Below the pieces are notes generated by a model. The model did not search any database and was not told where the DNA came from. It saw only the letters and a program-made list of their open reading frames with translations. A stretch of 64,000 nucleotides of DNA from Sinorhizobium numidicum (GTDB taxonomy: Bacteria; Pseudomonadota; Alphaproteobacteria; Rhizobiales; Rhizobiaceae), in assembly GCF_029892045.1 (NCBI RefSeq), contig NZ_CP120367.1, forward strand, positions 248,001 through 312,000, written 5' to 3'. Both the position numbers and the translations under genes were made by a program. Shown here in pieces: positions 37,653 through 49,333 of this stretch. The first letter of the stretch is position 1. Each line of letters opens with the position of its first letter.

Positions 37653-38480
37653 ATGACTTCGATTGCCCTGTTCGGCGCCGGCGGAAAAATGGGCTGCCGC
37701 CTGGCCAAGAACCTCAAAGGCTCGCGTTTCGATGTGCGCCACGTGGAGGTGAGCGAGGCCGGCAAGGCTCGCCTTGCACACGAGCTTGGGCTAGCGACCG
37801 TCTCGGCCGAGAAGGCGCTCGACGGCGCGGATGTGGTCATCCTCGCCGTGCCGGACACAGTCATCGGCAAGGTCGCGGCGGCGATCGCCGACAGGCTGAA
37901 GGCGGGCACGATAGTCATGGTTCTCGACGCCGCGGCCCCCTTTGCCGGTCATTTGCCGAGGCGCGACGATCTTACCTATTTCGTGACGCATCCCTGCCAT
38001 CCGCCGATCTTTAACGACGAGACCGAGCCTGCCGCGCGCAAGGATCATTTCGGCGGCGTCGCTGCCAAGCAGCACATCGTTTCCGCGCTGATGCAAGGGC
38101 CGGAGGCGGATTACGCCAGGGGCGAGGAGATCGCCAAGATCATCTGGGCTCCGGTCATGCGCTCGCACCGGGTCACCGTCGAGCAGATGGCTCTGCTCGA
38201 GCCTGGTCTGTCGGAAACGGTCTGCGCATCGCTGCTCGTCGTCATGCGTGAGGCGATGGACGAGTGCGTTGCTCGCGGCGTGCCGAAGGAGGCCGCCCGC
38301 GATTTCCTGCTCGGCCACATGAACGTACTTGGCGCCGTGATCTTCGACGAAGTCGAGGGCGTCTTTTCCGACGCCTGCAACAAGGCGATTGAATTCGGCA
38401 AGCCGATGCTGATGCGCGACGACTGGAAGCGCGTCTTCGAACCACAAGAGATCACCGACAGCATCCGTCGCATTACCTGA
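37653..38480 (+). CDS. apnO: D-apionate oxidoisomerase (6-phosphogluconate dehydrogenase-like)
   Basis: A 275-residue protein with an N-terminal NAD(P)-binding fold (IALFGAGGKMGCRLAKNL) and a C-terminal 6-phosphogluconate-dehydrogenase-like helical domain with the VTHPCHPPIF and FLLGHMNV segments. Proteins of this type were assigned as D-apionate oxidoisomerases, which convert D-apionate to 3-oxo-isoapionate. The assignment here rests on the family and on the matching downstream set. ATG 37653 has AAGGAG at ideal spacing. It is the first gene of the operon. Confidence 0.8.
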   Translation: MTSIALFGAGGKMGCRLAKNLKGSRFDVRHVEVSEAGKARLAHELGLATVSAEKALDGADVVILAVPDTVIGKVAAAIADRLKAGTIVMVLDAAAPFAGHLPRRDDLTYFVTHPCHPPIFNDETEPAARKDHFGGVAAKQHIVSALMQGPEADYARGEEIAKIIWAPVMRSHRVTVEQMALLEPGLSETVCASLLVVMREAMDECVARGVPKEAARDFLLGHMNVLGAVIFDEVEGVFSDACNKAIEFGKPMLMRDDWKRVFEPQEITDSIRRIT

Positions 38481-38494
38481 TGCGGGCGGCACAT

Positions 38495-38520
38495 ACCGGA
38501 GCCGGTGAGGCGGCTCCGGT
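38495..38520 (+). other. Strong hairpin before the binding-protein gene
   Basis: A perfect 10-bp inverted repeat (ACCGGAGCCG/CGGCTCCGGT) with a 6-base loop lies between the oxidoisomerase and binding-protein genes. It has no T-run. Such stems often protect or separate a highly expressed binding-protein message, which is the role I infer here. Confidence 0.6.
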
Positions 38521-38549
38521 CACCATTCAACCTGGGAGGAGAGTAACTG

Positions 38550-46667: not shown

Positions 46668-46708
46668 GATCAAAAGAAGCTACTCATTCCGTAAAGGCGA
46701 ATTCGCCC

Positions 46709-47965
46709 GTGATACGCATTACCTACCGCATCGAAAGCCCCGGCGACGTCGAGGCGCTGGCGGCAAAGATCGCAAGCGACCAATCGACCGGGACTTTCGT
46801 GCCCATACCCGGCGAAACGGAAGAGCTGAAGGCTCGGGTTGCGGCGCGTGTCGTTGCCATTCGGCACCTGGAGCCGACCGACAGACCCTCATTGCCGGAC
46901 GAGGCGGGGGACGCGCGACGCTTCAATCGGGCTGAAGCCGATATTTGTTTCCCCCTCGACGCCGTGGGCACCGATCTCTCCGCACTGATGACCATCGCCA
47001 TCGGCGGCGTCTATTCCATAAAGGGAATGACGGGTATCCGCGTCGTCGATATGAAGCTGCCGCCCGAGTTCGCTGCAGCCTATCCCGGTCCGGAGTTCGG
47101 CATTGCCGGAAGCCGTCGCCTGACGGGCGTTCAGGGCCGCCCGATCATCGGCACGATCGTGAAGCCCGCGCTGGGCTTGAGGCCCGTGGAGACGGCGGAA
47201 CTCGTGAACGACCTGCTTTCCTCCGGCGTGGATTTCATCAAGGACGATGAAAAGCTCATGAGCCCCGCCTATTCGCCCCTCAAGGATCGGATCGCCGCTA
47301 TCATGCCAAAGATCCTCGATCACGAGCAGAAGACCGGCAAGAAAGTCATGTACGCCTTCGGCATATCCCACACCGATCCGGATGAAATGATGCGCAATCA
47401 CGACCTGGTGGTTGCGGCAGGCGGCAATGCGGGGGTCGTCAACATCAATTCGATCGGCATGGGCAGCTTCGCCTTCCTGCGCAAGCGCTCCGGGATCGTT
47501 CTTCATGCTCATCGCAACGGCTGGGATATCCTCACGCGCCACGGTGGTCTCGGAATGGAGTTCTCCGTCTGGCAGCAGTTCTGGCGGCTCATCGGGGTGG
47601 ACCAGTTCCAAATCAACGGCATCCGCGTCAAATATTGGGAACCGGACGAGAGCTTCGTGAAATCGTTCAAGGCGATCAGCACGCCGCTTTTTTCAGAGAA
47701 CGATTGCCCTCTGCCAGTTGTCGGTTCCGGTCAGTGGGGTGGGCAGGCGCCCGAGACATACGCCCGTACCGGGCAGTCGACCGATCTGCTTTATCTGTGC
47801 GGCGGCGGGATCGTCAGCCACCCTGGTGGGGCGGGGGCGGGCGTCAAGGCCGTTCGCCAAGCCTGGGAGGCCGCGGTTGCGGGCATTCCGCTTGCGGACT
47901 ATGCCAAGGACCACCCGGAACTCGCCCAATCGCTTGAGAAATTCGCCGCCGGCAAAGGCGCCTGA
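46709..47965 (+). CDS. oiaX: RuBisCO-like protein, 3-oxo-isoapionate-4-phosphate decarboxylase type
   Basis: A 418-residue RuBisCO large-subunit homologue (form IV). It keeps the carbamylation and metal triad in DFIKDDE (Lys178, Asp180, Glu181) and the first active-site Lys in TIVKPALGL, but lacks the second Lys of KPKLG and the loop-6 Lys, so it cannot be a carboxylase. The operon points to the RLPs of apionate catabolism, which act on 3-oxo-isoapionate 4-phosphate as decarboxylase (OiaX) or transcarboxylase/hydrolase (OiaT). I cannot decide between them; the symbol is provisional. It starts at GTG. Confidence 0.75.
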   Translation: MIRITYRIESPGDVEALAAKIASDQSTGTFVPIPGETEELKARVAARVVAIRHLEPTDRPSLPDEAGDARRFNRAEADICFPLDAVGTDLSALMTIAIGGVYSIKGMTGIRVVDMKLPPEFAAAYPGPEFGIAGSRRLTGVQGRPIIGTIVKPALGLRPVETAELVNDLLSSGVDFIKDDEKLMSPAYSPLKDRIAAIMPKILDHEQKTGKKVMYAFGISHTDPDEMMRNHDLVVAAGGNAGVVNINSIGMGSFAFLRKRSGIVLHAHRNGWDILTRHGGLGMEFSVWQQFWRLIGVDQFQINGIRVKYWEPDESFVKSFKAISTPLFSENDCPLPVVGSGQWGGQAPETYARTGQSTDLLYLCGGGIVSHPGGAGAGVKAVRQAWEAAVAGIPLADYAKDHPELAQSLEKFAAGKGA

Positions 47966-47998
47966 TCGACCTCAATTCAGCAGCACGGAAGATTTTGA

Positions 47999-49333
47999 AT
48001 GCAGAGACCATTGCTGAGCTATTACGGCGACGACCTGACCGGCTCCACCGATGTGATGGAGGCGCTCTCCTCGCAGGGCGTCAACACGGCACTGTTCCTC
48101 AAGATCCCCGATGCCGCGCTTCTTCAACGTTTTGCCAATTGCAGCGCCTTCGGTCTCGCGGGCACGAGCCGCAGCCAGACGCCGGCCTGGATGGCTGAGC
48201 ACCTCCTGCCAGCTTTCACCTGGCTGAAGTCGCTGGACGCCGCGATCACGCACTACAAGGTCTGCTCGACCTTCGATTCCAGCCCCGCTGTCGGCAATAT
48301 CGGCAAGGCGATCGAGATCGGCCGCGATGTTTTTGGTGATGCGCCGGTGCCGCTCGTCGTCGGCGCTCCACAGATCCGTCGTTACACTGCCTTCGGCAAT
48401 CTCTTCGCCGCCTTTCGCGGCGAAACTTATCGTATCGACCGGCATCCGGTCATGAGCCGCCATCCGGTCACGCCTATGGACGAGGCGGATATTCGCCTGC
48501 ACCTGTCGCGCCAGACGTCATTGCGCACGGGGCTGGTCGACATCGCGCAACTCGGCTCGCCCGATGCGGATGCAATTACCGATCGCACCTTCGCTAACGG
48601 AAATGGCATCGTCCTCCTCGATGTCGCCCATGGGGAGAGCCAGGCGGCCGTCGGCCGGCAGATTTGGCGCAAGCGCGCTGCGGACGGGCAGTTTGCCTGC
48701 GGCTCGTCAGGCCTGGAATATGCGCTGGTTCGCGAGTGGCACCGGCTCGGGCTCATTGCCGAAGCGCCCGTCTACACCGCACCTGGCCCTGTCGACCGGA
48801 TCGCCGTCGTTTCCGGAAGCGTGTCGCCCACGACCGAACGGCAGATTCGGCATGCTATCGAGAACGGCTTTGATGGCATAGCGCTCGATGCGATCGCATT
48901 TGCTGCGCCAGACGGGGGCGCCGCGCTCGAGGACGCACTCGCGCGTGGCCTTTCGAGTCTTGCCGCCGGCCGGAGCGTGATCCTCTACACGGCTTTAGGA
49001 CCCTCGGCTGACCGAGGCGATGCCATACCTCTGGAGGATGGCTCGCGCCACAGGATCGGTGAGCGACTCGGCATGCTTCTGCGGGAACTGGTGACAAGCG
49101 CCGGACTTAGTCGAGCCGTCATCGCCGGCGGCGATACATCGAGCCATGCCTTGACCCAGCTTTCCGTCGATGCGCTGACCTTGCGGCTGCCCTTGCCACA
49201 GTCACCCGGTTCTCCTCTTTGCACCGTTCACAGCGCAGATCCGCGTGTCGACCGTATTGAGGTGGCGTTGAAGGGCGGGCAGGTCGGCCTCGACGACTAC
49301 TTCTCGATGATCCGCGACGGGCGGCCGGACTAG
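47999..49333 (+). CDS. oiaK: DUF1537 four-carbon acid sugar kinase family, probable 3-oxo-isoapionate kinase
   Basis: A 444-residue two-domain kinase: N-terminal SYYGDDLTGSTDVMEAL with the substrate-binding Asp pair, HYKVCSTFDSSPAVGNIG, and a C-terminal nucleotide-binding part with SGSVSPTTERQI, AGGDTSSHAL and GSPLCTV. Family members phosphorylate acid sugars such as tetronates. Beside the RuBisCO-like protein the expected substrate is 3-oxo-isoapionate. It begins 33 bases after that gene and completes the pathway here. Confidence 0.82.
   Translation: MQRPLLSYYGDDLTGSTDVMEALSSQGVNTALFLKIPDAALLQRFANCSAFGLAGTSRSQTPAWMAEHLLPAFTWLKSLDAAITHYKVCSTFDSSPAVGNIGKAIEIGRDVFGDAPVPLVVGAPQIRRYTAFGNLFAAFRGETYRIDRHPVMSRHPVTPMDEADIRLHLSRQTSLRTGLVDIAQLGSPDADAITDRTFANGNGIVLLDVAHGESQAAVGRQIWRKRAADGQFACGSSGLEYALVREWHRLGLIAEAPVYTAPGPVDRIAVVSGSVSPTTERQIRHAIENGFDGIALDAIAFAAPDGGAALEDALARGLSSLAAGRSVILYTALGPSADRGDAIPLEDGSRHRIGERLGMLLRELVTSAGLSRAVIAGGDTSSHALTQLSVDALTLRLPLPQSPGSPLCTVHSADPRVDRIEVALKGGQVGLDDYFSMIRDGRPD

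Follow-up and report, generated by a model that had tools for sequence, protein, structure and literature searches.

What does a rhizobial locus that joins an RbsABC-type sugar importer to a RuBisCO-like protein (RLP) degrade, and does its RLP fix CO2 or release it? We addressed this question in a 64,000-nucleotide stretch of Sinorhizobium numidicum DNA (contig NZ_CP120367.1, positions 248,001 to 312,000; hereafter the window), which holds a ten-gene cluster of this kind at 37653-49333. We read the locus of this root-associated bacterium, with a probability of about 0.92, as an inducible catabolic regulon for D-apiose, a sugar of plant cell walls, on a 2.3-Mb replicon, the whole proposed route included. 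Gene content, family scores, synteny, conserved sites and residue changes were all read directly from the sequences.

Gene content of the cluster and of related loci

All ten open reading frames (ORFs) of the cluster are present (Table 1), and nine of their products carry a fitting Pfam family, the exception being the lactonase, which has no Pfam match. With 849 bits against the NCBIfam ApnL model NF049900 (cut-off 750), the lactonase is a member of that family; it is also the genome's only match to the model. The RLP scores 785 bits against the OiaX model NF042437 (cut-off 700) and is likewise a member. An earlier reading of the letters alone (the sequence-only reading) had named these ten genes with their families and assigned them to an apiose/apionate pathway: the ORFs, Pfam and the ApnL model bear out the gene list, and the pathway assignment is supported by the ApnL and OiaX scores and by a gene content equal to that of plasmid p42f of R. 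etli CFN 42.

On p42f (RHE_RS26580-RS26635) the same ten genes share 55-85% protein identity with the window: ApnO 82%, binding protein 85%, DUF2291 protein 56%, ATPase 81%, permease 84%, ApsD 68%, ApnL 55%, regulator 74%, RLP 79% and kinase 61%. It differs from the window in its gene order and in the TIM, RpiB and DhaK/DhaL genes that lie in the same stretch, and shares with it two copies of a 14-bp site described below. The R. etli binding protein matched two compared stretches of the 5ibq chain letter for letter, 5ibq being a structure reportedly solved with D-apiose, and the title of structure 4ry0 names RHE_PF00037 from R. etli CFN 42. S. meliloti pSymB also holds both gene sets, with 78-97% protein identity to the window (upper set from strain ml21, L036; RLP set from strain 1021, L181), differing in strain 1021 in that the RLP, kinase and regulator genes lie ~51 kb from the apnO set.

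Across 297 genomes of the family, OiaX exceeded its cut-off in 59, ApnL in 56 and both in 48 (Fisher p 4e-36, ignoring shared descent), and this coincidence in 48 of 297 genomes argues that the gene arrangement is not due to chance. Thirty relative loci that carry an OiaX-group RLP (L040-L069) were taken in descending order of score from 29 of the 59 OiaX genomes, and 28 of them have ApsD nearby. We also counted neighbours in 80 named loci, those with the closest RLPs, within up to 8 kb (less where a contig ended sooner, as several did) and at 40% identity or more over 80 residues: the regulator was present in 74, the kinase in 72, the permease in 63, the ATPase in 61, ApsD in 55, the binding protein and DUF2291 protein in 53 each, ApnO in 47 and ApnL in 43, with all five core enzymes in 21.

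The RuBisCO-like protein

In an alignment of RLPs, with rows repeating one locus counted once and residue numbers following spinach RuBisCO, the window RLP has Ala in place of Lys177 and Gln in place of His327, and so does not carry the residues of the carboxylating RuBisCOs (forms I-III). Positions 175, 201, 203, 204, 294, 295 and 334 are conserved in every RLP row, and position 177 is Ala or Ser. Positions 325/327 read Gln-x-Gln in all 32 distinct OiaX-group loci, the window included, and His-x-His in all 12 distinct loci of a sister group, as well as in the host genome's own RuBisCO large subunit (G000:C1:1500175-1501098; L001, L039), which keeps the checked catalytic residues (Lys, His). 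A tree of 36 rows splits the two groups at 100/100 support, in a sample that, like that of the alignment, does not extend to the RLPs characterised as OiaX and OiaT in A. radiobacter K84 and X. autotrophicus, and the nearest RLPs to that of the window are from Ensifer aridi and S. fredii.

A rival RLP type is OiaT, a transcarboxylase/hydrolase whose products are 3-phosphoglycerate and glycolate and which would leave enzymes for a four-carbon (C4) product unneeded. Such an RLP fits a window locus that has no C4 enzyme genes, and one is already on record for this substrate: in the review PMC6302742, the K84 and X. autotrophicus RLPs are described as catalysing decarboxylation and transcarboxylation/hydrolysis of 3-oxo-isoapionate 4-phosphate. 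Against it stand the OiaX score, the place of the window RLP in the Gln-x-Gln group, and the TIM and RpiB genes that lie near some OiaX-group RLPs (in 21 and 18 of the 80 named loci, respectively), and we rejected OiaT activity as very improbable. The sequence-only reading had named OiaX and OiaT as alternatives; the model score and the Gln-x-Gln signature now favour OiaX, and the window RLP is probably an OiaX-type 3-oxo-isoapionate-4-phosphate decarboxylase, releasing CO2 rather than fixing it.

The sister group itself may be OiaT. Eight of the 297 genomes hold an over-cut-off ApnL without an over-cut-off OiaX, and all eight (G090, G133, G146, G151, G160, G166, G260, G268) have a sister-group RLP on the same contig, ~10 kb or less from ApnL, with the 14-bp site beside it in three (G090, G260, G268). 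Given this replacement in eight of eight genomes, which are related and hence not independent counts, the sister group seems to stand in for OiaX at its step of the pathway.

Fate of the C4 product

That enzymes for the C4 product must lie elsewhere, as the sequence-only reading held, fits what we found: the genes that best qualify stand at C2:2557831-2559039, also in this genome. Searches of the genome gave one RpiB-family match and two TIM matches, and the RpiB gene and one of the TIM genes adjoin at this position, in a locus that also holds glycerol-3-phosphate-dehydrogenase family, sugar-kinase-like, DeoR-type regulator and aldolase-like genes and that presumably resembles the erythritol locus of S. 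meliloti. The RpiB-like protein belongs to the D-erythrulose-4-phosphate isomerase (DerI) family by model NF051858 (254 bits, cut-off 240), as does the RpiB of R. etli (258 bits), whose gene sits with that for TIM within the apiose set. Identity to these R. etli proteins is 88% for RpiB, 77% for the neighbouring TIM and 34% for the other TIM. Judged from these likenesses, the missing C4 steps are most likely encoded by the chromosomal TIM/RpiB pair.

A predicted operator before apnO and the RLP gene

The regulator encoded within the cluster is a member of the NanR subfamily by its NF003011 score (Table 1). When the 230 bases upstream of the RLP gene were compared across 29 loci, one shared word emerged. 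In the window, ACTCATYATACCAGTT occurs only at 37598 and 46652, even when three mismatches are tolerated (two matches of this quality also turned up in 3 of 100 shuffles). With one mismatch at most, the 14-base form, ACTCATYATACCAG, matches the 6.72-Mb genome at just these two places, against none for the reversed control. One of the two sites precedes apnO and the other the RLP gene, at the distances given in Table 1. Both sites are part of the system, and ACTCATYATACCAG is probably the operator of the NanR-type regulator.

The site recurs widely in relatives. At up to one mismatch it was found upstream of the RLP gene in 59 of the 80 named loci and upstream of apnO in 37 of the 47 in which apnO is seen, and over the 1.31 Mb of these loci the real pattern gave 99 matches and the reversed pattern none. 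An RLP site together with an apiose gene (ApsD, ApnL or ApnO) occurred in 55 of the 80, an apiose gene only in 15, a site only in four and neither in six. The exact site was present in 49 of the 297 genomes (control 0), of which 44 have an over-cut-off OiaX and 48 an ApnL match.

Where the apiose genes are split, the site follows them. Of nine stretches that we checked around sites away from the RLP, five have an extra site on another contig: in four of them it precedes a distant set of apnO and importer genes, and in the fifth a regulator gene standing alone. In two more, an apnO copy on the RLP's own contig has the site ~150 bp upstream. The last two come from genomes without an over-cut-off OiaX; there the site precedes another sugar importer in one case and falls within unrelated genes in the other. 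On pSymB of S. meliloti 1021, one exact site lies 54 bp ahead of apnO and another, 51 kb away, 58 bp ahead of the RLP gene, and a third, one-mismatch site (L193) precedes another sugar importer. An exact site at position 4111 of L187 (G180:C9) precedes a different sugar importer gene set. The importers behind the sites in L187 and L193 may be a second transport system that this regulator controls. Among the distant apnO copies, that of L186 (G283:C28, about 3529-4924) aligns as two overlapping pieces and looks broken or misassembled.

Observations that weigh against an apiose regulon

Several observations count against our reading of the locus. For ApsD and ApnO, no NCBIfam model was matched over its cut-off, and both assignments, which should be taken as putative, rest on genomic context: the ApsD candidate scores 556 bits to the structure set 5uhw/5uhz/5ui9/5uia/5uib, in which the molecule is named only 'Oxidoreductase protein', and the ApnO candidate scores 446 bits to the solved structure 5t57, matches PF16896 and stands in the same context as in R. 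etli. The kinase falls below the cut-off of the OiaK model NF042436 (459 vs. 700 bits): the DUF1537 family named in the sequence-only reading stands (PF07005 and PF17042), but the protein is not a member of the OiaK family and would act like OiaK by its position only. The same model gave matches in 174 of the 297 genomes, none of them over 700, and the R. etli kinase also fails (473 bits); on these two grounds we set the cut-off failure aside as an argument against the pathway. The nine best scores (514-551 bits) each lie ~6 kb or less from a sister-group RLP, and the model therefore seems to fit another kinase branch.

The distribution of the site is also incomplete: at up to one mismatch it is absent before the RLP gene in 21 of the 80 named loci and before apnO in ten of 47 (five Brucella-group, three Aureimonas and two other loci), and the exact site is missing in 15 of the 59 OiaX genomes. 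Within two mismatches there is none in the C4-candidate locus, and the C4 steps are thus not visibly co-regulated.

A third set of observations concerns the OiaX label, which NCBI already gives to many such RLPs. The RLP of L053 scores 761 bits against the OiaX model, yet there is no ApsD, ApnL or ApnO in 19 kb around it, and that of L178 (R. etli IE4771, pRetIE4771a) is named oiaX by NCBI in a setting that also has none of the three. The automatic label thus covers loci without these genes as well, and for that reason an OiaX score alone cannot prove the substrate. These two cluster with L161, L163, L164 and L165 at 85/91 support as an OiaX-group subgroup without apiose genes nearby; the RLPs of the latter four share 70% identity with that of the window, and none of the six loci has the 14-bp site at up to one mismatch. 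The subgroup possibly acts on a different, undescribed substrate. Around the IE4771 RLP we noted genes for an SDR protein, a four-carbon acid sugar kinase, a beta-keto acid cleavage protein, a sugar importer and aldo/keto reductases.

Such loci without apiose genes among the relatives of the window RLP leave some room for the cluster degrading another branched sugar, for example D-hamamelose, whose pathway also uses an RLP (in Ochrobactrum anthropi, as cited in PMC8914248 and PMC10176493). The ApnL equivalog score argues against this, in a comparison that covered no hamamelose-pathway sequences, the O. anthropi RLP included, as does a gene set equal to that of R. etli, whose sugar-binding protein, RHE_PF00037, has been solved as an EFI target; hamamelose catabolism was rejected as extremely unlikely.

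The published R. etli mutant

Our reading of the window RLP as a decarboxylase conflicts with published work on its ortholog. PMC8914248 (2022) reports the inactivation of RHE_RS26630 of R. etli CFN 42, the gene at the place matching the window RLP, and concludes that it encodes a carboxylase for biotin-independent growth, assigning the neighbouring genes to ribose transport. By this account the window RLP would fix CO2 in place of biotin enzymes and its importer would carry ribose. The mutants, as described there, failed to recover biotin-independent growth on succinate medium, a defect corrected by biotin; apiose catabolism leaves this succinate phenotype unexplained, which is a further point against our reading.

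The carboxylase itself fits the window poorly. The RLP has Ala and Gln at the two positions named above, and its partner genes are of the ApnL, ApnO and ApsD types. In the part of PMC8914248 that gives fixation values, the CIAT652 mutant stands at 1047.3 and its wild type at 630.2 counts per minute (c.p.m.) per microgram protein, which runs opposite to the text's statement of a diminished mutant; for CFN42 the wild type stands at 1330.1 and the mutant at 1045.5 c.p.m. per microgram protein. The word apiose is absent from the main text of that paper. The sequence evidence points to a catabolic decarboxylase rather than a carboxylase, and we rejected ribose uptake and CO2 fixation by the RLP as very unlikely. 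The published rlp mutant is open to reinterpretation, the inactivated gene being the ortholog of the proposed apiose decarboxylase. There is a slim chance that the RLP has a double role, supporting growth by carboxylating or signalling when apiose is absent and biotin is short, as the mutant work claims, in which case one RLP would link plant-sugar catabolism with biotin-independent anaplerosis.

Gene map and surroundings of the cluster

The genome to which the window belongs measures 6.72 Mb in three contigs, and the window lies on the one of 2.32 Mb. The longest matches over the cluster in a plasmid collection were to Sinorhizobium fredii, S. americanum and related megaplasmids, at 82-83% DNA identity. 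The ApnL start is probably the GTG at 43850, which overlaps the apsD stop. The regulator ORF is open to 46657; its start, placed by comparison with the 234-residue R. etli protein, is probably at 46540 rather than 46657.

Table 1. Predicted features of the putative D-apiose cluster (positions in the window).
Feature	Position	Strand	Basis or remark
Operator-like site 1, ACTCATCATACCAG	37598..37611	+	55 bp upstream of apnO start codon
ApnO-like D-apionate oxidoisomerase (6PGDH-like, PGDH_C)	37653..38480	+	PF16896 251 bits
Sugar-binding protein of importer (Peripla_BP_4)	38550..39491	+	best solved matches 5ibq, 4ry0
DUF2291 lipoprotein	39547..40203	+	PF10054 217 bits
Importer ATPase, two ABC domains	40206..41750	+	ABC_tran PF00005 in two stretches; start inferred
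Importer permease (BPD_transp_2)	41750..42814	+	PF02653 148 bits
ApsD-like D-apiose dehydrogenase (Gfo/Idh/MocA)	42819..43853	+	PF01408, PF22725
ApnL D-apionate lactonase	43850..45766	+	NF049900 849 bits, cut-off 750; GTG start inferred
GntR/FCD regulator, NanR subfamily	45809..46540	-	NF003011 365 bits, cut-off 260; PF00392 and PF07729
Operator-like site 2, ACTCATTATACCAG	46652..46665	+	between regulator and RLP genes, 57 bp upstream of RLP start
OiaX-type RuBisCO-like protein (RuBisCO_large), GTG start	46709..47965	+	NF042437 785 bits, cut-off 700
DUF1537-type kinase in OiaK position (SBD_N, NBD_C)	47999..49333	+	PF07005 and PF17042; NF042436 459 bits

Elsewhere in the window, 5643-32988 is apparently a surface polysaccharide locus, with glycosyltransferases, polysaccharide deacetylase domains, a nucleotidyltransferase with a mannose-6-phosphate isomerase domain and an ABC exporter-type protein. 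Between it and the cluster, 33518-37436 encodes a molybdopterin-binding oxidoreductase subunit, together with a small 2Fe-2S-type subunit and an AraC-type regulator (assigned by eye from the translations), and the same three gene types stand upstream of the apnO set of S. meliloti ml21. Downstream, 54740-60548 encodes a LacI-type regulator, a family 3 solute-binding protein, a permease, an ATPase and a 2-hydroxyacid dehydrogenase.

Proposed route and comparison with known systems

The D-apiose pathway and its enzymes were reportedly described by Carter et al. in 2018, and we draw each reaction, the match of repressor and site, the inducer and the C4 route from that pathway and from context. 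Free apiose would enter through the RbsABC-type importer; the GH140 apiosidase family (PF13204) was not found in the genome, which limits the link of the cluster to pectin breakdown. ApsD would then oxidise apiose to apionolactone, ApnL would open this to apionate, and ApnO would convert apionate by oxidation and rearrangement to 3-oxo-isoapionate, to be phosphorylated by the DUF1537-type kinase. From the phosphorylated product the OiaX RLP would strip CO2, giving L-erythrulose 1-phosphate, which the TIM-like and RpiB-like isomerases of the chromosomal erythritol-type locus may turn into D-erythrose 4-phosphate. The NanR-type repressor, encoded mid-locus, would bind ACTCATYATACCAG before apnO and before the RLP/kinase pair, and release it in the presence of an apiose metabolite. 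What is often met in rhizobia as a 'ribose transporter plus RuBisCO-like protein' locus thereby becomes an apiose regulon open to testing, for which we name a regulator, predict a 14-bp operator and propose where the C4 steps are encoded.

Our literature search returned no description of the 14-bp operator or of this gene set in Sinorhizobium, a weak absence, most subscription papers being beyond reach. The words apionate and isoapionate occur, for a Rhodobacteraceae strain, in PMC11747546, and the Carter et al. 2018 pathway is cited in PMC6302742.

The E. coli operator of NanR is given as (GGTATA)3 in PMC8012715, and the 14-bp site of the window includes TATACC, the complement of GGTATA. E. 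coli NanR is of the same GntR/FCD subfamily as the window regulator, yet it controls sialic acid genes, unlike the window, and its operator has three GGTATA repeats where the window site has one. With respect to catabolism, the cluster is a new instance of an already known pathway, and neither pathway nor enzymes are new: the oxidative D-apiose pathway with OiaX likewise has the same importer type and the ApsD, ApnL, ApnO, kinase and decarboxylating RLP families in one locus. The window cluster differs from it in that its likely C4 isomerases lie outside, in the chromosomal erythritol-type locus, and in the 14-bp operator proposed for it here.

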